Of a DNA stretch of 64,000 nucleotides, positions 1 to 16,861 are shown piece by piece. Under the pieces are notes generated by a model. The model saw nothing but the letters and a program-made list of their open reading frames with translations, ran no database searches and was not told where the DNA came from. Numbering within the stretch: position 1 is the stretch's first letter; each line of letters begins with the position of its first letter. The DNA is from Nitrososphaeria archaeon. GTDB lineage: Archaea; Thermoproteota; Nitrososphaeria; Conexivisphaerales; DTJL01. The stretch lies in assembly GCA_029775965.1 (NCBI GenBank), contig JARVJU010000001.1, positions 1 through 64,000 of the forward strand, given 5' to 3'. Made by a program: the position numbers and the translations under genes.

Positions 1-470
1 TAGCTATGTCGTATTCTCTGATCGCATCTTCATACTTTTTGAGAGCATTGAGTGCATCTCCCTTGTTGTAGTGGTAGGATGGATCTGTAGGATCCAGACT
101 TATAGCTATGTCGTATTCTCTGATCGCCTCTTCATACTTTTTGAGAGCATTGAGTGCTCCCTTGTTGTAGTGGTATGATGGATCTGTAGGATCCAGACTT
201 ATAGCTATGTCGTATTCTCTGATCGCATCTTCATACTTTTTGAGAGCATTGAGTGCATTTCCCTTGTTGTAGTGGTATGATGGATCTGTAGGATCCAGAC
301 TTATAGCTATGTCGTATTCTCTGATCGCATCTTCATACTTTTTGAGAGCATTGAGTGCATTTCCCTTGTTGTAGTGGTATGATGGATCTGTAGGATCCAG
401 ACTTATAGCTATGTCGTATTCTCTGATCGCCTCTTCAAATTCACCTTTGCAATAATGCATTAATCCCTTT
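1..470 (-). repeat. Tandem 102-bp repeats coding near-identical TPR units
   Basis: Four nearly identical direct repeats start at 1, 103, 202 and 304, with a diverged fifth unit from 406. Three units are 102 bp (34 codons, the TPR length). The unit at 103-201 is 99 bp, having lost one codon in frame. The copies differ by only a few bases. The coded unit contains the segments AISLDPTDPSYHYNKG and AIREYD, with TPR spacing. Near-identity at the DNA level means recent duplication or gene conversion. The array may continue to the left of the window. Confidence 0.95.
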
Positions 471-3283
471 TCATAATGGCCTTCTGGCTTGAAGTACCCT
501 ATTTTCTCCAAGACACTGGCCAACGCAGTTATATACATCCTCAGCGGATGAGGAGCATTCATGAAGCTATTGGCCATTTCGGATATGGAGATTGGATTCA
601 CGACTCCTTCCCCGATGAATTGTCTATCTACCCTTTTAGCAAGCTCATCATCAAATAACCTGCTCATGTAAAGAACGCTAAGGGTGTAAAACGGTCTACT
701 AGCAGTGTCTTTTATCTGGATGGCCCCGGCGAGCATTTTGCCGCTAAGATAATCGTTGACGAGGAAGCCAAGGAGACGATTCAAGAAAGTTCTCCCACGA
801 GCTGTCAGCCTTTTCATGTCCACCCTCTCAAAAAGGATATGAAATCCTTCTCTCCCCCCCTCTTTCTGAAGGTTCTGGATTGAAAGATGAACTGTGGCAC
901 CGAGCATCATCAAGTCCGCCATGTCTTCAAGACTTGCGGAAGCTATGTTTCTTTCGAATTCATTGACTGCTTTTATCAGCGGCTTTAAGGGAAATGTTTT
1001 TTGTTGTTCATTCGATTTGTCCAAACTTTTTTCGATATCATCTAGATAAGCTTTCAGTGTTGTATCAAGCCTGAAAGGTAGACGCTCTTCCTCTGCAATT
1101 TCATCAAGAACATCTTGGTACCAAGAATGCAGAAACATTTTTCTGTCCTGTCCCATGACTGCAAACCTCGGCTTCTCGACATTGTAGACTTCTTTGAAGG
1201 CTTTCAGGTACTCTACTGGTAGACCTCTGGTGTGTGATATGAGATAATAAGCGATCTTGATGTCAGCACCATTTATTTTTTCCTCTTCTTCCAGTATTCT
1301 GCTTACCAGCTCTTTAATGCCCTCTGGAAGTTCATCTAGCTCTTCGATGCTGACTTGCCGTTTTTCCTGCTCCCTCTTTTTCTTTTCGATTACCTTTAGA
1401 GCCTCGGAGATGTATATCGGCAGACCCTCGGCTTTGCTCAAAAGGACACTCACTCCTCTCTCAACATCCTGCTCCGCCATACTCTGCTGAAGCCCCCTCC
1501 TTGCGATTTCACTTAGTACACTTTCCCTTAGCTTAACTTCAATGAGCTTTAACCAGTCATTCTGCCTCATGCTTTGTAGCATTTCTTGATCAATATAACC
1601 TGTCCTGACCGAGACTATTACTCTCCCCAATGTATCTACTTCCCTGAGTTCTAAAAGATATTCGAAGAACGTTTCTGTTATGTCTTGATCTGTCAGTTCT
1701 GTGATGGCGTACGAGCCATCCATTTTTTGAAAGAGGACTGGGTCAAACCATTTTACATCATCTATAAAGTACAGCCTAGACCCGCTAGTATTCATAATCT
1801 CTCTGGCAAGGAGAAATAGGAGCGTTGTTTTTCCTGCTCCAGGCTCCCCTGAGAGCACGACCACCTTATTAGAAGCACTATTAATGATGTCCTTCATAAT
1901 CTCCTTCACTTCCTTATCGGCTTCAGAATCTCCGGTGCCAACAAGGGTTTGGGGGCTACTCTTATCCGCCGGGATGTTTAATAGTTCCTGAAGATGGCCT
2001 TCATTTGTGACCTTGACAATTCCCTGACTGTATAACTCTTTATTGATAGCCTTGAAACCTACTTCAAGCGACTGGATTCTCGATTCGTAGTTGTCAATCT
2101 CTTCTTGAATTTTTTCGATTTTTTTCTTTATCTCAGGCATTTCCTCGATTACTGATTTTATTTTGTTAATGTTATCATCGGTGAAGAGCTTTTCGAGTTC
2201 TGAACGAAATGATTCTTTCGGCTTCGAGAGCCATGACGAGAGCCATTCAAAGCTGCTCCATGGAGGTAGCTTGAACTTCATGTCGAGCTTCTCGCAGAGA
2301 AACTTCTGCTTTTGAATCGGTAGCTTATTCCATGCAGCGTGAACACTCACGTACCTGTCGAGTCCTTCATTCTTTCTTCTATTGTGAAAGATCAGAAGTG
2401 AGGGTACGACGAGGAGGATACCGCCAACGACCGGTATCATTGGCACTAAAGGGGCGGCTAGCCTGCTAAAATAGTCCACGTCTTCGGTAGCTATCACTAA
2501 TGTTTCAGCTGTAGAGATACCAAAGATGCCAGCCACAAGCCGCTCGCGCGCTTTTCCAATATCGACCTCATTCTTGAGTTCCTCTTCTCTCTTCCCTTTG
2601 TGCTTTTTCATCATTTCGTAGAGCAGCGATGGACAGAGTTGCCCACCCTCCTCCTTTTTAGGAAGGCCTCCCCAGCTGGCAAGTGAGAGAAAGTAATCCA
2701 TTCTTCTCTTCAGTTCATTTTTATCTTGGCTCTCTATGTCAGAATCCTTTCCCCAGACCTTTTTTGCATAATACTCATACAGTTTCGTGGCATCTTCATA
2801 ACTCAGCTTCGCTTCGACACGTGCAGCAGTCCCGAGAGGACCAGTTGAACTGCTTTCCGCCTCTTTCTCCTTCTTTTTGAAGACCCATAACCATTTATCC
2901 CACCCTTTTTCTTTCCTTTTTTTGATCACTCCTAACCATTTATCCCACTCTTCCTCGCCCTTTTCGTATTTGACTGGCAGGCCGGAAAAGATGTATTCGA
3001 TTTGGTAGCTGCTTCCCTCCAGAATGGTATTATTCTGCTTTGCTCTATCACGGAGCTTTCTAGCTTCTTCCTCCTCGATCTGTCCTTTGGGTACTTCTAT
3101 CCATTCGTATTCTTTGGCTTTGGGAAAATAGCTCTGCACCCTTTTCCATGCCAAGGTCTTGCCTGATTCCATGTCACCGGTAAGGATCAGGGGGGCGCCT
3201 TGCAGTTTTTCTATTGCATCTTTGAGCTTCTTGTCTAGACTCAGCTCAATGCCAAGGTCTTCAGTGTCTTGTATGGTGCTCAT
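1..3283 (-). CDS. Large two-P-loop STAND-like NTPase with C-terminal TPR array (3' end outside window)
   Basis: An open frame of about 1,094 codons runs from the ATG at 3283 off the left edge, so the C-terminus is missing. Seen: a first Walker A (GDMESGKT, residues 36-43); a hydrophobic segment near residues 270-300; a coiled-coil-like stretch; a second P-loop (GEPGAGKTT, about 479-487) followed by a Walker B-like FIDD near 505 and a sensor-like VSVRTG; a long helical region; and TPR units from about residue 930. Both P-loops and the TPRs sit in one frame. An NTPase core followed by TPRs fits the STAND class of signalling ATPases, which includes regulators and anti-phage sensors; which job applies here is not visible. 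The start has a good Shine-Dalgarno (GGAGGTG, 8 nt upstream). It lies in the mobile region, next to a broken cas6. Confidence 0.75.
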   Translation of the reverse strand, partial: MSTIQDTEDLGIELSLDKKLKDAIEKLQGAPLILTGDMESGKTLAWKRVQSYFPKAKEYEWIEVPKGQIEEEEARKLRDRAKQNNTILEGSSYQIEYIFSGLPVKYEKGEEEWDKWLGVIKKRKEKGWDKWLWVFKKKEKEAESSSTGPLGTAARVEAKLSYEDATKLYEYYAKKVWGKDSDIESQDKNELKRRMDYFLSLASWGGLPKKEEGGQLCPSLLYEMMKKHKGKREEELKNEVDIGKARERLVAGIFGISTAETLVIATEDVDYFSRLAAPLVPMIPVVGGILLVVPSLLIFHNRRKNEGLDRYVSVHAAWNKLPIQKQKFLCEKLDMKFKLPPWSSFEWLSSWLSKPKESFRSELEKLFTDDNINKIKSVIEEMPEIKKKIEKIQEEIDNYESRIQSLEVGFKAINKELYSQGIVKVTNEGHLQELLNIPADKSSPQTLVGTGDSEADKEVKEIMKDIINSASNKVVVLSGEPGAGKTTLLFLLAREIMNTSGSRLYFIDDVKWFDPVLFQKMDGSYAITELTDQDITETFFEYLLELREVDTLGRVIVSVRTGYIDQEMLQSMRQNDWLKLIEVKLRESVLSEIARRGLQQSMAEQDVERGVSVLLSKAEGLPIYISEALKVIEKKKREQEKRQVSIEELDELPEGIKELVSRILEEEEKINGADIKIAYYLISHTRGLPVEYLKAFKEVYNVEKPRFAVMGQDRKMFLHSWYQDVLDEIAEEERLPFRLDTTLKAYLDDIEKSLDKSNEQQKTFPLKPLIKAVNEFERNIASASLEDMADLMMLGATVHLSIQNLQKEGGREGFHILFERVDMKRLTARGRTFLNRLLGFLVNDYLSGKMLAGAIQIKDTASRPFYTLSVLYMSRLFDDELAKRVDRQFIGEGVVNPISISEMANSFMNAPHPLRMYITALASVLEKIGYFKPEGHYEKGLMHYCKGEFEEAIREYDIAISLDPTDPSYHYNKGNALNALKKYEDAIREYDIAISLDPTDPSYHYNKGNALNALKKYEDAIREYDIAISLDPTDPSYHYNKGALNALKKYEEAIREYDIAISLDPTDPSYHYNKGDALNALKKYEDAIREYDIA

Positions 3284-3425: not shown

Positions 3426-4198
3426 CTAGCAAATTATGCTTCCCAACCCCACATCAAGTGCAAACTGAATCATATTGCTATTCACATCAGCTTCAAACCC
3501 AAATTCCCATACAGTCCCAATCACAACCTGGTCAAAGCCCTTCATCGGTACTCTTGTAGAGACATGCTTTTTGAACCTGAATTTCTGGAATAAGAAGGGA
3601 GGCCTTTCCATACCATTAACATTCAGTCCAGCTATATTATCATTACCCAACCCGAAATACTCTGCATATTTCTTTCTCAGGTTGTTTTCGAGCTGCGATA
3701 TGAACAGGTCAATAGGATGATCGCTTCTCCAGTAAACATAATCATACCTGCCTTTTAGCGCTATGCCATAAGCTTTGTACTTTTCTCTCGGGATTCCGAT
3801 GATGATTGGAGTGCCTGTAATAAGAGTAAATGGAGAGTTTCCTGGGAGCCTTACATCCAGTTTGTCACCTAATCAATCTTGAACTTCATACCTCCGATGC
3901 TAATCTCTGCATTTGATTGGCACAACAACATTTCGTTTAGGTGACAGATAAATTCACTGTCAGGGGAAGAAATTATCAATATGCGTGGGTCGTTCTTTAC
4001 AAGATCCCTTGCAGGGAATATATTCGAAAAGCAGAAGAACTTGTACCCCTCCTTATCATGCACATAATCATACTTACTGCCCTTCAGCAGGTTATAGATA
4101 AAACCCTGTAAATGGTAGTGGTATCGCATTTCATACTTGCTGTCTTCCATGCACCTGAGCCTGATAGCAACAGCAAGCCATTTTCCTGCAGTATATCT
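3426..4198 (-). pseudogene. cas6: Frameshifted cas6 (CRISPR RNA endonuclease) remnant
   Basis: The first part (4150-3872) has the Cas6 N-terminal signatures: a HLQGFIYNLL segment, then KFFCFSNIFP. It ends at a TAG at 3869-3871. Translation continues one frame over from about 3871 (LGDKLDVRL onward) to a TAG at 3426, giving the second ferredoxin-fold half and a GLGS near the end. The usual glycine-rich C-terminal tail after GLGS is missing. In-frame strand-like sequence also continues upstream of the 4150 ATG (WLAVAIRLR) without a clear start codon. Cas6 processes CRISPR precursor RNA; here the gene is broken, and no CRISPR repeat array or other cas gene is visible in the window. Family assignment rests on recalled motifs. 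Confidence 0.7.
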
Positions 4199-4684: not shown

Positions 4685-5299
4685 ATGAGCTTGATCTGGT
4701 GGCTCAAGGAGAGTAGATGGGAAGCTAAGAATATACCTCTCTTTGGCTTCATCTTTTCATTAAGGCAGTTTGTGATTATATTTGCATTCATGCTTCTTGG
4801 CCTCCTCTCTTCTCTGGCATTTTCATTCATCACATACAAGCTCGGAGTATTTTTTTTCCTTTCTTTAATAGGCGTGCTTCTCGCGAGCATAAAGGTCAGA
4901 ATGATACCATGGGAGCTTCAGCTTATTTATGCCTTGACAAGACCAAAGAGCAGTTCAATAAAGATGGAGGCAAAACCGAAGGCAAAGGTTCATGTTCTCA
5001 AGGAAGAGCCTCCACAGGAAATGTTCTCTGACAGCGAAGTGCCTCTCAGCTTCACAGGGCGTGTTGATGTTGAAGAGCCTGCAAAAGTTATATTGCTTGT
5101 CGATGGGATTGAAGCATCCTCTGCTAATGTTTCGCACAACAACCCGAACTACCGCCTCCTCTTCTACCCTGCCAGCTACTCCATAGGTGTGCATGAATTG
5201 ACAGTCAAGCTAGGAACAAAAGAAGTCGAGAGGGTGAAGATAACCATAAGGCCAAGGCTTGGAGGGAAAAAGGTTGAACTGCTTGAGGGGGCTGCATGA
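4685..5299 (+). CDS. PrgI-like membrane protein of a type IV secretion/conjugation module
   Basis: This 204-residue protein has two adjacent membrane helices (about residues 25-50 and 52-72) near the N-terminus. A linker and a beta-rich, Ig-like C-terminal domain (about 105-195) follow. A short two-helix protein directly before a VirB4-like ATPase is the usual position of PrgI/VirB3-type proteins, which tie the ATPase to the membrane pore; the assignment rests mainly on this context. The start lies about 25 nt after a TATA-like TTTAAAC, which suggests a leaderless message. The gap to the ATPase gene is 35 bp, so the two are likely co-transcribed. The extra C-terminal domain is unusual for PrgI. 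Confidence 0.55.
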   Translation: MSLIWWLKESRWEAKNIPLFGFIFSLRQFVIIFAFMLLGLLSSLAFSFITYKLGVFFFLSLIGVLLASIKVRMIPWELQLIYALTRPKSSSIKMEAKPKAKVHVLKEEPPQEMFSDSEVPLSFTGRVDVEEPAKVILLVDGIEASSANVSHNNPNYRLLFYPASYSIGVHELTVKLGTKEVERVKITIRPRLGGKKVELLEGAA

Positions 5300-5334
5300 G
5301 GGTGAACCATAGCTTTACTATGAAGTGATTATTA

Positions 5335-7230
5335 ATGAAATACAAGTACATGTATGAGCTGAGGTCGATCAACCTCTTCAACCTTTCACAGGAGGAAGCT
5401 GCTGGTGTTCTTGACGACTATGCCGAGCTTTTGAATTCGCTTCTTTCTCCAGTTGAGATAAAAATAGTTGAGGATACAAGGCAGGTTGTTCTTGGTGATG
5501 AAGCATATTATCAGCCCTACAAGCGTTACTTTGTCTCCTGCAATGAACCTCTCGATAATGCGTTGATGAATATGAAGGTGAAGTTTGTCAAGGTCCCTTC
5601 AATACCTTCGCTGAAGATAAAATCTGAGCTGAGGCGGTTCATGATTGATGAGGATGATCGCTTTGTTGAGTGCTGGAATCTGACAGCTCTATCAAATTCA
5701 ATGAACACAGGCTTCCTGACGGATCTTTACCCCTTCACATATGAAATAAGAATGACTGTTTATCCGCTTGAAAAAGGGAAGGAGATAGCAATGTCCCATG
5801 CATTTATGGTAAGGTCAAAGATACAGCTCAGGGAGAAGGGTAATAGAGCTGTTGATCCATCCATGTATCTTGAAGCTGATGGAGCACAAAAAGCTGCAAA
5901 TGCTGTTGCAGCTGGAAGCGAAAGACTGTTTCTGTTAAGAATGATGATAACACTGAGGGCAAAGGAGAATACAGAGCTTGTCGAGAAGGAGCATGCACTT
6001 TTATCACGCCTAAATGGTCTTATCGATTCCCCTATGTTCCTGCAGAGAGCCATGTACGAAGAGAATGGTCCTTCTTACACAACTGGTAGACTTATCTATG
6101 CACCAACCTCAACGCTGCTCGCCTTCTTCCCCTTCGCAGGGCTTGACCTCATCGACCCTTCTGGTGTATTGTTGGGTCAAAACATGCAGACTGGAAATGT
6201 TATACTCTACGATATATTTGATAAAGAAAACTACAACGTAAGCATTTTAGGGCAAACAGGGTCTGGAAAATCAACACTTATCAAATCATGGATATCCCGC
6301 CTTGCTAACCAGGACGATGAAGCATACATATACATATTCGATTCAATAGCAAAGCCAGAATATTCTGTCGGACCAGATAATAGGTATGAGGGCTCATTCG
6401 CTCACATGATAGGTGCAAAGGTCATTGACTTCAAAAAGGAAAAGGAAACATGCCTTGACCCATTTGCCATATTTGAAGGCAGGCAGACTGCTCAGGTTAT
6501 AGAGGAGCTTGCAGGGGTTGAAGAGGCAGAAATGAAGGATGAACTGCGCATTGCAGCTGAAGGAGCTAAAAGTATTGATGATCTGATGAAAAAGATTGCA
6601 GAAAGGAAGTCAGCTGGAGAAAATTCATCCGTATCAAGGCTGGAGAAGAGGCTCAGCTCCGAGCTCAAGCATTATGAGCAATTCTTCCGTGGTGAGATGG
6701 ATATATATGACAGGATGGTCTTTTCTCTCTACGACCTTGACAGGGCAACAAGAGATGTAATTGCTTTCCTTACACTTGGAATGGTGTGGAAGACAATAAA
6801 GTCTCTGCCTACTAAAGCTAGGAAAATTGTTGTAATTGATGAGGGATGGGCCTTTGTGGAAAGCAACCCGAAGACAGGCAAGCCCTACTTCCCAATGGCT
6901 GTGGAGTATATCCCTGAGATAGCAAGGACAGGAAGGCACTACAATACAGCATTCTTTATTGCAACACAGCAGGTTTCAGATATGTTTACTGGGCCAGGAA
7001 GAGCAATGCTCCAGAACAGTGCTACAAAGGTTATACTGAAGCAGGACCCAGCTGCCACTGACATACTTTCTAAGGAAATAGCACTTTCACAGGAGGAGAG
7101 AAGGTTTGTTCTGAATGCGAGAATGGGCCATGCACTTCTTCTCACATCAGAAGGGCACATACCATTTTACAATGTTCTGGCAAAGTCAGAGCTTGCAGCG
7201 TTTACCACAAGGCCGAAGGATATGCTGTGA
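5335..7230 (+). CDS. VirB4/TraC-like conjugation ATPase
   Basis: This 631-residue protein has the VirB4 layout: a variable N-terminal half of about 290 residues, then a RecA-like ATPase with Walker A GQTGSGKST (about 306-314) and Walker B VVIDE (about 499-503). A HerA/VirB4-type segment follows (IPEIARTGRHYNT then ATQQVSD). VirB4 ATPases energise assembly and substrate transport of type IV secretion systems at the cytoplasmic membrane. The flanking PrgI-like and VirB6-like genes support a DNA-transfer module. No relaxase or VirD4 coupling protein was recognised in the window, so the system is partial or split. The frame is intact, with an ATG start. Confidence 0.85.
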   Translation: MKYKYMYELRSINLFNLSQEEAAGVLDDYAELLNSLLSPVEIKIVEDTRQVVLGDEAYYQPYKRYFVSCNEPLDNALMNMKVKFVKVPSIPSLKIKSELRRFMIDEDDRFVECWNLTALSNSMNTGFLTDLYPFTYEIRMTVYPLEKGKEIAMSHAFMVRSKIQLREKGNRAVDPSMYLEADGAQKAANAVAAGSERLFLLRMMITLRAKENTELVEKEHALLSRLNGLIDSPMFLQRAMYEENGPSYTTGRLIYAPTSTLLAFFPFAGLDLIDPSGVLLGQNMQTGNVILYDIFDKENYNVSILGQTGSGKSTLIKSWISRLANQDDEAYIYIFDSIAKPEYSVGPDNRYEGSFAHMIGAKVIDFKKEKETCLDPFAIFEGRQTAQVIEELAGVEEAEMKDELRIAAEGAKSIDDLMKKIAERKSAGENSSVSRLEKRLSSELKHYEQFFRGEMDIYDRMVFSLYDLDRATRDVIAFLTLGMVWKTIKSLPTKARKIVVIDEGWAFVESNPKTGKPYFPMAVEYIPEIARTGRHYNTAFFIATQQVSDMFTGPGRAMLQNSATKVILKQDPAATDILSKEIALSQEERRFVLNARMGHALLLTSEGHIPFYNVLAKSELAAFTTRPKDML

Positions 7231-7260: not shown

Positions 7261-7473
7261 TCATTCGGGCGAGCTCAACTTAGCCCTATCAGGACGCTTT
7301 TTCCCTATGTAATGCCATCTGACCTTCCTTGTTTGACCATGCAGCCCATCATAATGTGCTACGTACAGATAATGGTAAACCCTGCCTTTTACTGGTATTG
7401 ATTTTATCTGGACTGAGCCAAGCCTGCCACACACAGGGCACTTGATCACTTTGCTAACATGCTGCTCTGGCAT
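7261..7473 (-). CDS. Small zinc-binding protein of unknown function
   Basis: About 70 residues with one CPVC pair near the N-terminus, then a basic segment rich in Tyr, His and Arg. The ATG at 7473 is preferred; an upstream in-frame TTG at 7482 would add three residues. It converges with the VirB4-like gene, ending 30 bp from it. Small zinc-finger proteins of this kind are common in archaeal plasmids and viruses and often bind nucleic acid, but no function can be read from the sequence. Confidence 0.5.
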   Translation of the reverse strand: MPEQHVSKVIKCPVCGRLGSVQIKSIPVKGRVYHYLYVAHYDGLHGQTRKVRWHYIGKKRPDRAKLSSPE

Positions 7474-7525
7474 ATCAACCAACCATCTTATCTTTTCTTA
7501 TCTTATTTCGTTCCATCCCATCCAA

Positions 7526-8202: not shown

Positions 8203-8640
8203 ATGGACGATGACACAAGGAGGTTTGCTGAGGAATATATCGCAGATTATGCAGAACTGTACAGAATTGCTAAGGAGAAGATGCCAGATGGAGCCCCGCC
8301 AGAGGTGATTGTATTTCTGCTACGAGGCATGAAGGCAGCTCTGTACTACAGGGAAAAAGAAGAGAAGAAGAAAGCAGCTCCAACAAACACTGTAGGTGAA
8401 AAGGATCTTCAAACCATCCTGGAGGAGCTTGGATGGAAAAATGCAAGGAATGGTAGACAATGGATATTTGTCACAAACAGGGATGGTAGCATGGTCGAAG
8501 CACTGAAGCCACTTGAAAGCACACTGGAAAAGATCAAGGAGGCAAAAGGCATGCTAGTGATTGGTAAATGGAGGTACAGTATTTCTGATGGTGGCAAATT
8601 CCTCTCCAGATATCCCGTAGAGGGAAGGAGCATACAATAA
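8203..8640 (+). CDS. Hypothetical protein of the conjugation region
   Basis: This is a 145-residue soluble protein, not recognised. The N-terminal half is acidic and helical, with a Lys/Glu-rich linker near residues 60-75. The C-terminal half is mixed alpha/beta with a WRYSIS and GGKFLSRY ending. A TATA-like TTTTATG lies about 30 nt upstream of the ATG. A T-rich terminator follows directly, so it is probably a single-gene transcript. No family is claimed. Confidence 0.55.
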   Translation: MDDDTRRFAEEYIADYAELYRIAKEKMPDGAPPEVIVFLLRGMKAALYYREKEEKKKAAPTNTVGEKDLQTILEELGWKNARNGRQWIFVTNRDGSMVEALKPLESTLEKIKEAKGMLVIGKWRYSISDGGKFLSRYPVEGRSIQ

Positions 8641-8659
8641 AATAAAATACCATACAGCA

Positions 8660-8687
8660 TTTATTTTTTATTTTTTCTTCTTTTTTG
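8660..8687 (+). terminator. T-rich archaeal terminator
   Basis: Immediately after the stop of the preceding plus-strand gene there is a 28-nt stretch that is almost pure T, broken by single A, C and G bases. Oligo-T runs are the usual intrinsic termination signal of archaeal RNA polymerase. Confidence 0.7.
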
Positions 8688-8722
8688 ACTGCTTCAATCT
8701 ACAGCCTTTCCATCAAAAGTGT

Positions 8723-8788
8723 GTGACATTAGCTTAAATGGGGTGCGACATTTGCTCAAATAATGTGACATCTGGTGAAAAATATCAG
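8723..8788. repeat. Short iteron-like direct repeats
   Basis: The core GACAT preceded by GTG(C) recurs three times, with the core at 8725, 8747 and 8767 (spacing 22 and 20 bp). Each is followed by a partly conserved tail (roughly GCT-AAAT). Spacing near two helical turns places the copies on one DNA face, as in iterons or clustered operators. They lie directly left of the cruciform-like structure and about 150 bp before the VirB6-like gene. Confidence 0.5.
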
Positions 8789-8795
8789 AAGGGCG

Positions 8796-8862
8796 TGTCC
8801 CCGTGGCAAATCCCCTGGGATATAGCCATTTGAGCTGATGGCTATCGCAAGCCACAGGGACA
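8796..8862. other. Three-way-junction inverted-repeat structure (candidate ncRNA, oriT or origin element)
   Basis: An outer 12-bp stem pairs 8796-8807 with 8851-8862. It encloses two perfect hairpins: ATCCC/GGGAT (8810-8814 with 8817-8821, loop CT) and ATAGCCAT/ATGGCTAT (8822-8829 with 8838-8845, 8-nt loop). The single C-A mismatch of the outer stem becomes a G-U pair if the minus strand is transcribed, so a minus-strand RNA would be fully paired. No coding frame explains the region. A structured RNA, nicking site or replication element are all possible. Confidence 0.5.
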
Positions 8863-8911
8863 TAATAGCATAACACCACTACCTTAAAAAGAAAACGCTG
8901 CATACTGAGGT

Positions 8912-10600
8912 GTGAAGCTCATACCGTTCAGGCTGGCAAGATTTTACCACGACCTTTCCTATCTATTTTTATTCTCGATTATCATATTTGCCATCGCATC
9001 CCCCGTCTTTGCAACGCCAAAGGCTGCAGGTAGTGTAGCGCTCACGCTTGTTAATACTTCATACGGTTCAATGCGCTCATTACGTGGAGAAATACCTTTA
9101 ACATATTATGTTGAAGGTACAGTAATCATTTCAGGTGATTATGTGTATTACTCTTCAACACCATTCAACACATCAACCAGCCAGAACCTCAATGTAAGGG
9201 CTGGAAACTCCACAGGTAGTGCTGGTGGCACTCTTGTAATAAACGGTACAACATACTATACAGAGCCAGCCCCGATGAACCTTTCAGGCACAGTAACAGC
9301 ATACTATATGGGTAATGTGAACGGACATTCTCAGATGGAGAACATTACGGAGCCAATATCTTTTAACAACCCTTACTATACTGGCCAATCAGCTGGTTTC
9401 ACAACATATTTTGATTCATTACCCAGCTCACCAGAATATTTCCTCATATACGTACAAGCTGTATCTAACAATCAACTCCTTGCTGAAACATCAACAACAA
9501 TAGCACCAGCTGGGACAGTAAACCTCTTCACCACAATAGTTGCTTTACCAGTCTTCAACGACTCCATGCTTGGCGCGAATGTAATAGGCGTAAACTCTGG
9601 TCAACCATCTCTCCCACTGGGAGGTCTCTTCAACCTGATGCTTATCATTTCTCTTATAGTGCTCACCTTTTCAGTTCTATTCATCTTCTTTACCCCGCAG
9701 AGGGGAGAGAGATTATCATTCGGAAGTGCTCTTGCCAAAGTGGCAATAGGAATTATAATAATGCTGCTCTTTCCTCTCATTTATGACCACATAGCTGAGC
9801 TGATCAACCTGCTCAACCAGACAATCATTGCTTATCCAGCCCCTGCACCTGCCTACAATATAGTGCTCCAGAACATTTACAACTCTATCTTGCTTCCAAC
9901 AGGAGGAAACTTTCTATCTATTCTTGAGGCAGGGGTGCTGTTTATAGCAAACGCTGTTGTTGCAATAATAGTGTGGATTATGCTATACCTTGTAGGGACT
10001 GTCAGAATATTTCTTATAGCAGGCATGATCATCATGTTCCCTCTTTCAATAGCACTTCGAGATATTCCTTTTACACAGAAACTTGGAAGGATAATAGAGG
10101 ATACATTCTTCGGCTTGGTTTTGGCAACTGTTCTTTCAGCATCCATGCTCAGTGCAGCTGGTTACCTTCTTCTGAACTGGAATACAGGCACAAACATATT
10201 CATTCAAGCTGGTATACCTTCTGAATGGATGGCATCTGCTGCTATAATTGTAGCTATCCTTGCTCCTACAGTCCTTGCACCTCTGACTTCAACCGTTTAT
10301 CAGACAACTTCACAGGTAGCAATGGCAGCAGGGTCTGTTGCTCTGGCTGTAGCTTCTGGTTTTGGTGCTGGCAGCATAGGAGCTGCAGGACCGCTTGGAG
10401 GTGTTGCAGGAGGAGCTGGTGGTGTTGGTGGAACTGGCAATGTTGCAGCTGCAAACATTCCGAGAAGGTCTGTTGGTCGGTTCTTTGCCTATGGGGCTCT
10501 GGGAGCACTTGAAGCAGGGCTGGAATCCTTTGGAGAGGCTATACGTATGCGACACGGCCCGCTGCATGTGGCACGCAAGATAGGTAAGATAAGGGTGTAA
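8912..10600 (+). CDS. VirB6/TrbL-like polytopic membrane protein with secreted N-terminal domain
   Basis: This 562-residue protein starts with a signal-peptide-like segment (residues 1-35). An extracytoplasmic, Ser/Thr/Asn-rich beta domain (about 36-230) follows. Then come at least five or six membrane helices (about 238-470) and a Gly/Ala-rich region, ending in a basic tail. That layout fits the TrbL/VirB6 class, which forms the inner part of type IV secretion channels; the match is by architecture, not sequence. The start is GTG, with a TATA-like CTTAAAAAG about 27 nt upstream. It lies downstream of the VirB4-like gene, after an insert of small zinc-protein and hypothetical genes. Confidence 0.6.
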   Translation: MKLIPFRLARFYHDLSYLFLFSIIIFAIASPVFATPKAAGSVALTLVNTSYGSMRSLRGEIPLTYYVEGTVIISGDYVYYSSTPFNTSTSQNLNVRAGNSTGSAGGTLVINGTTYYTEPAPMNLSGTVTAYYMGNVNGHSQMENITEPISFNNPYYTGQSAGFTTYFDSLPSSPEYFLIYVQAVSNNQLLAETSTTIAPAGTVNLFTTIVALPVFNDSMLGANVIGVNSGQPSLPLGGLFNLMLIISLIVLTFSVLFIFFTPQRGERLSFGSALAKVAIGIIIMLLFPLIYDHIAELINLLNQTIIAYPAPAPAYNIVLQNIYNSILLPTGGNFLSILEAGVLFIANAVVAIIVWIMLYLVGTVRIFLIAGMIIMFPLSIALRDIPFTQKLGRIIEDTFFGLVLATVLSASMLSAAGYLLLNWNTGTNIFIQAGIPSEWMASAAIIVAILAPTVLAPLTSTVYQTTSQVAMAAGSVALAVASGFGAGSIGAAGPLGGVAGGAGGVGGTGNVAAANIPRRSVGRFFAYGALGALEAGLESFGEAIRMRHGPLHVARKIGKIRV

Positions 10601-10967: not shown

Positions 10968-11942
10968 TCATCTAACAATAAAAAGCCTGTACCTGCGCCC
11001 GCAGTTCGGGCAGGAAAAGACCTGTCTTTCGTCAGAGCTGATAATAACTGGCAGGCTCTCTTCTTGCTCCTCTTGCTCTTTGTCTTCCTCTGCTGCCCTT
11101 TCTTCTTTTGCAAGCATTGCATCATACTTATCGCTCTGCATTTTACCTTCTTCTTTTATATTCTGCACAGCATCCATAGCAGGTTTCTCCTCGCTTCTAT
11201 CTGATCCAGTTCTTCTCTGTTCTTCCTTTGAAGCCAATGTTGCATTGCTGTATTCAAGCAACACATCAGCTCTCCTTATCCCATTCTTCTGCAGATACTC
11301 TGAAACTTCCTTTGGAAAATCGTTCATGTTATGGGAGAGGACGAATGTGGAGAAGTTTGGAGCATGTATAGCATTTTCTGTAAGGTGATTAACGATTGCT
11401 ACATAAGCTCCAACAACCATCAACCACCTGTCAGATAGGGTTGACAATCCCTTTAACTGACCTAGTGTTAGAGATGAGCAAGCAATCCTTTCCATCTCAA
11501 GCCAATCACGCTTTACCTCCTCAGGCACAGCAGCATCTATATTCATCAGCTCTCTAACAGTCTGCCTACCAAATACTCTGTTTGCTGTTTCCTGAGGTAT
11601 AATCTTCACTGCATGCAATTTGTCCAGCATGCTCAGTGACTTCCTTTCTTCGTTTTCGCTTAATATCTGGTTCCATATCTCAGCATCACTTGCCTTCTGC
11701 ACTATTGTGACATAATACTTATCTGGCCTGCCATAAAGCTCATATGATTTCTGAACAGCAAGCAAACGCCTTATCCCCATATACACCATAACAATGCCTT
11801 TGTCATCCATGTATCCCACACCAGGCTGGAGCTGCCCGTACTTGTTGATGCTCTCCACAAGAGAGTCTATCTTGTAATCTACTCTAAGCATGAAACGTTC
11901 ATCAGCCCTGCATCTTTCAATTGCGATGTATTCTGCCATCAT
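10968..11942 (-). CDS. ParB-like nuclease-fold protein with C-terminal zinc-ribbon-like motif
   Basis: This 324-residue protein has a ParB/Srx-type domain at residues 25-70: SINKYGQLQPG, then a beta hairpin and MGIRRLLAVQK, matching the ParB box where GERR is usual. A helical middle (about 110-230), a long charged coil (about 235-300) and a terminal CPNC motif follow. ParB proteins bind centromere-like sites to segregate plasmids, and archaeal plasmids carry such genes. No ParA ATPase is seen here. The start overlaps the previous gene's stop by ATGA, which indicates translational coupling. Confidence 0.65.
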   Translation of the reverse strand: MMAEYIAIERCRADERFMLRVDYKIDSLVESINKYGQLQPGVGYMDDKGIVMVYMGIRRLLAVQKSYELYGRPDKYYVTIVQKASDAEIWNQILSENEERKSLSMLDKLHAVKIIPQETANRVFGRQTVRELMNIDAAVPEEVKRDWLEMERIACSSLTLGQLKGLSTLSDRWLMVVGAYVAIVNHLTENAIHAPNFSTFVLSHNMNDFPKEVSEYLQKNGIRRADVLLEYSNATLASKEEQRRTGSDRSEEKPAMDAVQNIKEEGKMQSDKYDAMLAKEERAAEEDKEQEEQEESLPVIISSDERQVFSCPNCGRRYRLFIVR

Positions 11943-12622
11943 AACACCTCCTTTATCGGAATCTGTATGCCAGTATCCTTCAATGCAAGCTTCAGAGCCT
12001 TTAGAGCAATTGTCCTCGGGGCAGAACCCACCATCTTCTTTGCTTCCTGCTCTGCATAGCTATGATAAAGCATATTGACTCTGTTGTAGATACCATTGCC
12101 GAAGGAACGCAGCCTCACATCTACAGAGGGGAATTTTGATAAGGGGTATACTTCAGCTGCTGAACGACGATGAAATACAGGGAAAAGTGATCTATTATGA
12201 TTTGCAATGCGAAAGAGTGTATATTCATCCACATCCTTCAGCTTCCCTTCTGCATCTATCGCATGCCCGGCAGCTATAATGGCAGAAGAGGCATAGCTGC
12301 CTTCCACATAAGCTGCTACCAGTGCCTTCAATAGAGGGCTTCCCTTGTTTATTCTCTTTGCTATCTGCATCACTCTGCCCACCCATGAATTGCCTGCATG
12401 GAGCTGCACAGCCAGCCTTTCAACTTCATTATGAATCACTGCATCAGGGTTTGAATGAAGCTTGTCGAATATCTTCTTCTGTATTGGCCCTATCGGATGA
12501 CCAAGAATCCTTGCATAATCATCAGGCGATGCTTCAGCATCAACACCTCTTCCATCGGAATCTGTAATGCTCATGAAAGTTTCATAGCCTGAAGTGCTTA
12601 AAACGCCCAATGTGCGGGTCAT
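11939..12622 (-). CDS. Hypothetical first gene of the ParB-like operon
   Basis: About 227 residues from the ATG at 12622 (MTRTLGVL). A longer frame reaches 12667, but those codons would run through the operator repeats and the TATA box. The TATA box (TTTATATAA on the minus strand, near 12650) is about 25 nt before the 12622 ATG, typical of a leaderless archaeal gene. The protein is mostly helical and no family was recognised. It is coupled to the ParB-like gene by an ATGA overlap, so a role in element maintenance is inferred. Confidence 0.55.
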   Translation of the reverse strand: MTRTLGVLSTSGYETFMSITDSDGRGVDAEASPDDYARILGHPIGPIQKKIFDKLHSNPDAVIHNEVERLAVQLHAGNSWVGRVMQIAKRINKGSPLLKALVAAYVEGSYASSAIIAAGHAIDAEGKLKDVDEYTLFRIANHNRSLFPVFHRRSAAEVYPLSKFPSVDVRLRSFGNGIYNRVNMLYHSYAEQEAKKMVGSAPRTIALKALKLALKDTGIQIPIKEVL

Positions 12623-12627
12623 ATCAT

Positions 12628-12680
12628 ACATATCATATGCTATATTATATAAAGAGATATGATACATATCATAATACTTA
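12628..12680. promoter_or_regulatory. Divergent promoter with operator-like ATATC/GATAT repeats around a shared TATA box
   Basis: An A/T block (TATATTATATAAAG, about 12641-12654) gives a TATA box on both strands. It is flanked by two copies of a 17-bp motif: one containing the direct repeat TATCATACA-TATCATATG (about 12631-12649), the other an inverted repeat ATGATA-CA-TATCAT (about 12659-12672). The minus operon starts 25 nt downstream on one side, the plus gene about 35 nt on the other. Flanked TATA boxes are the standard archaeal repressor layout. The regulator is probably one of the adjacent gene products. Confidence 0.6.
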
Positions 12681-12683
12681 TTA

Positions 12684-13103
12684 ATGCATAACAGCTATAT
12701 TCCTGCCATGTCAGAGAAGAAATGGAAGACAGTTCTGCTGCGCAGCGAGTATGTAGATGGCCTTAAGGCACTCTACGAGAGGAAGAAGCATCCTCTGCTT
12801 GACCAAGGGATAAATTCATTCACAGGCTTTGTCAACGACCTGGTATGGCATGTTATCGAAGCGGACAGGGTACTTTCCAGAAAGGCTCCCTTCCTTTCAG
12901 AAGTTGGCATGACAGAAGATGGTGTCACAATCAGAGATGCAAGGCTGAATCGGATAGTGGATGTGAAGGTCAGGAATGGTGAGCTTGTATGTGAGCTAGA
13001 TAACTCAAACAGCTGTTTGCATGTGGGGTTCGCCTACGCCATACCTGAGGTATACAGGGTTATGAACATGCTCGGCAAGAAGGCATTAATCAAAGAAAAC
13101 TGA
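12684..13103 (+). CDS. Hypothetical protein, possible ribbon-helix-helix-type DNA binder
   Basis: This is a 139-residue protein from the ATG at 12684; an internal ATG at 12708 would remove eight residues. The N-terminus reads WKTVLLRSEYVDGLKAL then a GINSFTGFVNDLV segment, a strand-helix-helix pattern seen in small archaeal regulators. The C-terminal half is beta-rich. It is transcribed divergently from the ParB-like operon across operator-like repeats, so autoregulation is plausible. The family assignment is weak. Confidence 0.5.
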   Translation: MHNSYIPAMSEKKWKTVLLRSEYVDGLKALYERKKHPLLDQGINSFTGFVNDLVWHVIEADRVLSRKAPFLSEVGMTEDGVTIRDARLNRIVDVKVRNGELVCELDNSNSCLHVGFAYAIPEVYRVMNMLGKKALIKEN

Positions 13104-13221: not shown

Positions 13222-14148
13222 CTAGTTGACAGGGACTCTTCTGGTGTTAATCTGGAACCATTTCTGGTTAGGAATTCTGTTCCGCAACACCAGAGTCTTG
13301 ATAGCTACAGCCAGGCTTGCCTTTCTATCTGCATTTACAACTTATTCTTTGCATCTGAACAGGGAATAGATGCTTCCATCATGTCCATTCCCAACAGCAC
13401 CATAGCAGGAACACCATTTGCTTTTATGGTAAGCATCAACTCTGTTCAGTGTAATCCCATGGTCAAAGCATCTCGCTTCAAGTATTCTTCTGAAGAGAGT
13501 AAATGGTATAGTCATAACCTTCCTGTTGAAGATTCTGCCCTTTGACTTGAACCTCTTTAACTTCTCTATGGAGATGTCAGCACCATATCTTTTAGCTAGA
13601 AGAATTATATCTCTAACCATCTGCCCTATGCCTGTCTTCACATAATTCCTCTGCTTGTGCCTCATCCTCTTCAATCGCTTCAGGTTGTTAAAGTGCTGTA
13701 AGATAGCTCTTCGCTCTTCAAAATGCCTCTTCTTAATCCATATTTGTTGACCTAGATATCCCTGTTTGAGGATCTTCCCCTCTGGTGTCAAGATGGTATA
13801 GGCGAAGTTCTTGGCGTTGATATCTATACCTAGGACATTCATTCTCGATGCCAGTGGTTCGTCTTTCTTCGAGAGATAAGCAACTATATCCAGAGAAGGA
13901 GTTAAACCAAACGTCTTGCATGTCCATCCGTTTCCAAGCAAATCATTGAACCTGTCGAAGTTTTGGTTCTTTCGTATTGGTATGGCAATCCTATGCCTAG
14001 CTAAGGTAGAGCCCCAGTTCGACAAAGAAGAACCCCTGTAGATTGTTTTTTGAATCAGCAACCATGCCCAATCTGGTTGAGCCTATCAAACCATTCGTCT
14101 ATGTCCTTGCATTCTGTGGCAAGAGAAAACGCTTCTTTTAGCGAGGTT
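13222..14148 (-). pseudogene. tnpB: Broken tnpB (IS200/IS605 OrfB) transposon nuclease
   Basis: The main frame (14061-13345) has RuvC motif I GIDIN, motif II IEKLKRF and the first zinc-finger pair CSCYG. A TAA at 13342-13344 replaces the second CxxC. In-frame coding then resumes (VVNADRKASLAVAIK, containing the last RuvC Asp) to a TAG at 13222-13224. An N-terminal fragment in another frame (SLKEAFSLATECKDIDEWFDRL) lies at about 14065-14148. TnpB is an RNA-guided DNA nuclease; this copy lacks an intact zinc finger and N-terminus. It abuts an ABC permease fragment at about 14148. Confidence 0.85.
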
Positions 14149-16071: not shown

Positions 16072-16720
16072 CTTTATGTGTCAATGGGTCAGTGATGCTG
16101 GGATGCTCCTCTAACCATCCTCGTAGCGCTGAAGCTGATGAAATCAATCTGAAAATCCTTTCTCCAGTCTTTCCCTTACCCTTATACTTGCTCCTCTCTC
16201 ATCAAACGCTACATCCCCTACATGCATGTTAAGAAGCTCAGAAGCACGCAGACCAGCCTCAAAACCGACTGCAAGCATTGCCTTGTTTCTCGTTGAGCTT
16301 GTTGTTGCCATCATCGTTTCAACTTCACTAGGTGTCAGGAACTCGGCTCCCCCCTCTGGTTTGCCTTGCTTGTCTCCTTCAACCATTTTACTCCATCAGG
16401 AATGGTGTATCTGTATCTACATACTTAACGAATTTGACTAAACGCTTGATTGCTGCAACGAAGTCAAGGAATCTCTTCGCAGTAGTCCCGCTTTCTCAGT
16501 TCGTTCACAAGCCTCTCTATTTCTGCCCTGTCAGGATTGGGCAGCTAGGATATCGTGGCACATGTCTTCAGATGGAATATGTACTTGGCCCTGCGCCTGT
16601 CGCTTACACCCCTTGCCTCCAGATGCGCTGCAAACCTCTCTATGTTAACCCTGTCATCCTATGCTATGTCAGCTTTTTTGAGCAGGTTAGGTTATAGGCC
16701 CGCTCCAGGCTGCGAGCATA
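16072..16720 (-). pseudogene. Frameshifted tyrosine integrase
   Basis: Three frames together spell an archaeal tyrosine recombinase. An N-terminal core-binding part lies at about 16400-16640 (PNPDRAEIERLVNELRKRDY then DFVAAIKR-like and KYVDTDT), with stops. The catalytic-domain start is at 16386-16144 (FLTPSEVETMM, then GFEAGLRASELL with the first catalytic Arg). A third piece in another frame follows (ISSASALRGWLEEHPSITDPLTH, about 16080-16140). The HxxR and Tyr motifs are lost. It sits at the 3' end of the tRNA-Gly gene, the usual place for integrases of elements that insert into tRNA genes, so it marks an attachment site. Confidence 0.75.
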
Positions 16721-16786
16721 AGTATAGCTCATGCTGTTGCATGCCTCCTCAGCTAAAAGGAGCTTATTTTGACTTGCAGTAGAAAG

Positions 16787-16861
16787 TGCGAGGTGCGGGA
16801 TTTGGACCCGCGTCGCCGCCTTGGGAGGGCGACGTCCTAGACCAGGCTAGACGAACCTCGC
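16787..16861 (-). tRNA. tRNA-Gly (CCC anticodon)
   Basis: The minus strand folds as a full tRNA. The acceptor stem GCGAGGT/ACCTCGC is perfect with discriminator A. The D-arm is GTCT...GGAC, the anticodon arm TCGCC-CTCCCAA-GGCGG with anticodon CCC, and the T-arm GCGGG-TCCAAAT-CCCGC. No intron is seen. The 3' end (16787) faces the broken integrase, and the accessory region ends here. The tRNA is therefore intact and likely the insertion target. Confidence 0.93.

Follow-up and report, generated by a model that had tools for sequence, protein, structure and literature searches.

The window analysed here, a stretch of 64,000 nucleotides from a Nitrososphaeria archaeon, carries just upstream of a virB6-like gene a non-coding site made of three direct repeats and a long, structured stem. 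Taken together, repeats and stem are probably a real functional site, judging from the matching changes that the stem has undergone in a related element. The reading tentatively favoured (probability about 0.4) is that of a cis-acting transfer or replication site of an integrative conjugative element (ICE), be it a transfer origin, a replication origin or a lagging-strand start. There is one repeat-plus-stem site per element, lying within the transfer genes, and in this respect it looks like a transfer or replication origin. On the plus strand, the elements of the region follow each other in this order:

8203–8640, plus strand: upstream gene, 145 aa, whose position upstream of the site is kept in the relative G014 (47% identity)
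8661–8687, plus strand: T-rich tract after that gene, probably an archaeal terminator
8721–8729, plus strand: iteron 1, core GTGTGACAT, from the sequence
8743–8751, plus strand: iteron 2, core GTGCGACAT, 22 bp after iteron 1
8763–8771, plus strand: iteron 3, core ATGTGACAT, 20 bp after iteron 2
8796–8807: 5′ arm of the outer stem, from folding
8810–8813/8818–8821: hairpin 1 (ATCC/GGAT), 4 bp, from folding
8822–8829/8838–8845: hairpin 2, 8 bp, from folding, without counterpart in G014
8851–8862: 3′ arm of the outer stem and its right-hand base, from folding
8883–8890: near-palindromic TATA-like box CTTAAAAA, from the sequence
8912–10600, plus strand: VirB6-like membrane protein, 562 aa, named by synteny and by the first-pass annotation

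That annotation had set the fold between a T-rich terminator, direct repeats and the VirB6-like gene, in a stretch free of coding. Tract and repeats are indeed present, and a coding function of the intergenic site was rejected because no ORF running across it has an evident counterpart in G014. Since the tract at 8661–8687 is a probable terminator, transcription from upstream should not continue into the stem; in G014 the corresponding position holds a hairpin plus a T-run.

Folding bears out the 12-bp outer stem enclosing two hairpins that had been proposed for the 67 nt at 8796–8862. Eleven of the 12 outer pairs are formed, and the exception is, as claimed, a C.A mismatch on the plus strand that becomes a U.G pair on the minus strand. 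The minimum free energy is −33.8 kcal/mol on the minus strand and −32.1 on the plus strand (z of −4.26 and −4.28, respectively), with none of 200 shuffles equally stable. When 67-nt stretches were scanned in 4-nt steps on both strands of the whole 64-kb window, this fold ranked first in stability among 15,984 positions, with tRNA below it. A 12-bp stem nevertheless arises in 13 of 300 shuffles of the 271-nt intergenic region and is not rare alone, so that the outer stem by itself is modest evidence.

The repeats are harder to obtain by chance. Their core is GTGNGACAT, copy 3 having A in place of the first G, and the three copies (cores at 8721, 8743 and 8763) lie directly upstream of the stem. 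Such a triple repeat was reached in 1 of 2000 shuffles of the 271-nt intergenic region, and the 64-kb window has no other triple direct repeat of this type. Hairpin 2 also holds an inverted copy of iteron 1, matching at 13 of 15 positions, a score reached in none of 300 shuffles. Allowing two mismatches, the 1.73-Mb genome still has no second copy of the repeat pair; in its longer pattern the pair is present in 2 of 400 genomes of the class, and it was met in 1 of 398 genomes drawn from the phylum, a draw that did not include G014. The combination of triple repeats and stem is found nowhere else in the 64-kb window or in 20 kb of G014.

Of 200 related genomes, 33 contained a relative of the VirB6-like protein; the named ones are Nitrososphaerota/Thaumarchaeota MAGs, and the host order is probably Conexivisphaerales. 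The closest one whose upstream region is present is the syntenic G014 (JAJYTP010000001, archaeon DX2.bin21), where the 12684-type, 11939-type, parB, virB6, 8203-type and virB4 genes are all there (for the window genes see below). The site occupies the equal position in G014, between the same two genes: an intergenic region of about 208 nt contains three repeats at 22-bp spacing, a 53-nt stem-loop, a fully palindromic TATA region (CCTTCCTTAAAAGGAAGG) and then virB6. The outer stem has 13 bp, with a z of −4.9 on the minus strand. Hairpin 2 has no counterpart there, the interior has competing folds, and hairpin 1 is possible as an alternative ATCG/CGAT pairing outside the RNA minimum-energy fold. 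As G014 lacks the second hairpin, what is conserved is the repeats plus the stem, and the three-way junction put forward as the feature is not. The direct repeats, for their part, had been taken for neighbours of the fold; they are present, and the comparison makes them part of the same conserved site.

Aligned at the junction, window and G014 show standard pairs in 23 of 23 countable cells on the minus strand. Three outer pairs differ at both positions and two at a single position; each of the latter, one per element, is G-C in one sequence against a minus-strand G.U (plus-strand A.C) in the other. Pairing falls to 33–57% when the partner is shifted by 1 to 3 columns. For these two sequences, the chance of keeping all 12 shared pairs is 0.05 when an equal number of transitions is placed at random and 0.0003 when any substitution is admitted. 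With two sequences, and with column shuffles matching the covariation score in 67 of 500 cases, the support from compensatory change is weak. Conservation of the site concerns the window and G014. In another relative, G019 (69% in VirB6), the contig begins inside virB6 and the position of the site falls outside its sequence. No comparable site was found upstream of virB6 in G004 (two copies), G010, G006, G001, G095, G198 and others, and since it is absent from these more distant elements, it is not a general feature of such ICEs. A match in locus L053 was rejected as low-complexity sequence.

The element itself fits the archaeal conjugative context suggested by the first-pass annotation, with an archaeal host and VirB4, VirB6-like and ParB-like genes. 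Besides the virB6-like gene, it includes:

5335–7230, plus strand: VirB4-like conjugation ATPase, above the cut-off in Pfam and below it for NCBIfam VirB4
10968–11942, minus strand: ParB-like protein (PHROGs, 1.6e-07; TIGR00180, 3.7e-05, below its cut-off)
11939–12667, minus strand: gene overlapping parB, in a position that fits the TFIIB-like gene of thaumarchaeal ICEs
12684–13103, plus strand: protein with an RHH-like N-terminus and a C-x7-C-x-H motif, by sequence pattern

The VirB6-like protein matches nothing in Pfam or NCBIfam, and its identity comes from its relatives in Nitrososphaeria loci where VirB4 is present as well. For the 11939–12667 gene, no profile or PDB sequence match to TFIIB was obtained. 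The 12684–13103 protein is the best conserved among the element genes (76% to G014) and is a candidate DNA-binding partner of the site. It may be called RHH-like on the strength of its sequence pattern, of a weak DUF6290 match in 3 of 8 members of its family and of the CopG-like proteins reported in Nitrosocaldus ICEs; its AlphaFold model has a mean pLDDT of 41, too poor to serve in a fold search. The divergent promoter that it shares with parB carries two dyads, CATATCATACATATCATATG at 12620–12639 and TATGATACATATCATA at 12658–12673, likely an autoregulatory operator. In the neighbourhood of the site no relaxase, nuclease or replication initiator came to light, the HUH families not having been searched singly, and none of the element proteins scanned was recognised as a relaxase.

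A tyrosine-integrase-like fragment at 16144–16386 (by eye) lies near tRNA-Gly (16786–16861), which suggests that the element integrated there; a second copy of the tRNA-Gly end was not found in the assembly. Window position 1 lies at or close to the beginning of the contig, and the element in the window is partial. It also looks partly decayed, given the integrase fragment and a TnpB-like remnant of an IS200/IS605-type element, recognised by sequence at 13342–14061 (minus strand). At the left end of the window are a large, defence-like STAND-NTPase plus TPR protein (2–3283, minus strand) and a Cas6 N-terminal fragment (3869–4150, minus strand).

How might such a site work as an origin? An element-encoded DNA-binding protein, the 12684–13103 protein being the best candidate and ParB another, would bind the repeats. 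Once the DNA turned single-stranded, the stem would form and mark the point of action for a nuclease, a helicase or a primase, after which one strand would be passed to the VirB4/VirB6 channel or copied. Because its interior is long and asymmetric, the stem is expected in single-stranded DNA rather than as a cruciform in the duplex. A narrower version, itself somewhat unlikely, makes the site the origin of transfer in an archaeal conjugative element that works without a relaxase, with an RHH-type protein on the repeats and the stem setting the strand start for an unrelated archaeal nuclease or helicase.

The comparison with bacterial oriT shows likeness as well as difference. Repeats of the kind bound by accessory proteins stand beside an inverted repeat in a single non-coding site, in one copy, inside the transfer region. 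Here, however, no relaxase was found among the element proteins scanned, no nick site is known, the host is an archaeon, and the stem is longer and has a structured interior. Iteron-type plasmid origins also come to mind, with three repeats at about 22-bp spacing and, in the window, an adjoining A+T-rich tract; in the present case, though, the neighbourhood has no recognised initiator gene, that tract probably serves as a terminator, and the stem is on the other side. Parvovirus and AAV terminal hairpins likewise consist of a long stem around two small hairpins, with nearby repeat sites and a copy of the repeat in one arm. The site described here is internal and not at a terminus, and its second hairpin is not conserved; the resemblance is a structural analogy, without evidence of homology. 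Thaumarchaeal ICEs (Krupovic et al., 2019, PMC6563490) recall the window in their VirB4, VirB6-like and ParB-like genes, in having parB within an overlapping two-gene operon and in the adjoining tRNA; the available part of their description mentions no cis-acting transfer site.

The first-pass annotation offered a structured RNA, an oriT or a replication element; the structure, the non-coding character and the conservation in G014 support this in part, while the three-way junction is not borne out, and the sequence cannot pick among the three. The DNA reading is ranked slightly above the RNA one, since the repeats, the component least likely to arise by chance, are retained by both elements. 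It does not account for the strand polarity (G.U on the minus strand), and the position of the stem, a short way before the virB6 promoter, fits a role in transcription just as well.

A minus-strand small RNA is the first alternative, possible if somewhat unlikely. The TATA box would fire both ways, rightward into virB6 and leftward into a short RNA of about 85–95 nt that would start at the stem base, fold into the stem and end at a T-run. The spacing fits: the TATA centre is separated from the stem base by 24.5 nt and from the virB6 start by 25.5 nt, both distances being 24.5 nt in G014, and the distance to the stem is within the TATA-to-start spacing of several leaderless-looking window genes (by eye). 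The minus strand has a T5 run near 8780 after the stem and a T6 run in G014, and the one imperfect outer pair of each element reads A.C on the plus but G.U on the minus strand. Symmetric prokaryotic promoters are known to fire often in both directions (PMC10268837). However, virB6 needs a TATA box anyway, the stem-to-virB6 distance could be inherited, and chance would often give two sequences the same G.U polarity (1 in 2 with one strand fixed). The RNA would also leave the repeats unexplained, the interior of its stem is not conserved, and Rfam covariance models gave nothing at or near the gathering threshold for the site.

An operator or a centromere, the repeats being bound by an element regulator of the virB6 operon or by ParB/RHH partition proteins and the stem being secondary, is likewise possible if somewhat unlikely. 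Its appeal lies in the two-turn spacing of the repeats upstream of a promoter, in the ParB-like and RHH-like genes near the site, in the CopG-type RHH proteins common to Nitrosocaldus ICEs (PMC5797428) and in the ParB-TFIIB coupling reported in thaumarchaeal ICEs (PMC6563490). It leaves the compensatory stem changes unexplained, though; the repeat cluster occurs nowhere else in the element, and the RHH/parB divergent promoter has a different dyad, TATGATACATATCATA. Finally, a solo transposon end or MITE is highly improbable: GTGNGACAT-type repeats may look like the terminal repeats found in certain DDE transposons, and similar repeat pairs exist in unrelated viral contigs, but the site is single-copy in the genome, which led to the rejection of a dispersed repeat or MITE, and sits in the same place in two diverged elements, in an interval without transposase and with no inverted second end seen.

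Searches further afield brought only short chance matches to plasmid and phage DNA, which were rejected, as were the viral contigs with similar repeat pairs, where no convincing homologue with a stem was seen. VirB4 or VirB6 relatives were not found in viral contigs, nor were proteins of the window element in L083, the one viral contig checked. Several TGTGACATTTTGTCACA-type repeats lie there inside a replication-type gene (5170–5305), a possible phage origin. In G004, contig C1 (614–637 kb and 966–1051 kb; L041, L042, L073, L075–L077) carries a 20-bp near-perfect palindrome, CCCCCRTAANNTTRYGGGGG, at about 30 sites with at most two mismatches, all but one within two virB6-bearing regions. Its subtypes, ATAA versus GTAA, mostly differ by region, and a weak ParB-like match lies near the edge of each; these palindromes look like element-specific binding sites. 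No dispersed palindromes of this kind recur in the window element or in G014. In G095 (L046), three tRNA 3′-end-like fragments of GGTTCAAATCCCGGCGACCGCA type lie near virB6 (7440–7490, 8770–8795 and 8825–8845) and are possible repeated attachment sites.

Archaeal conjugative elements possess a VirB4/VirB6 machinery. No relaxase has been found in archaeal conjugative plasmids (PMC9905601; PMC12857230) or in thaumarchaeal ICEs (PMC6563490), and our literature search found no reported transfer origin for thaumarchaeal ICEs or archaeal conjugative elements. A conserved, single, structured cis-site beside virB6 provides a defined DNA target for nick mapping, binding and deletion experiments. Should it be an RNA instead, it would be the first member of a new family of small RNAs associated with transfer genes in archaea.
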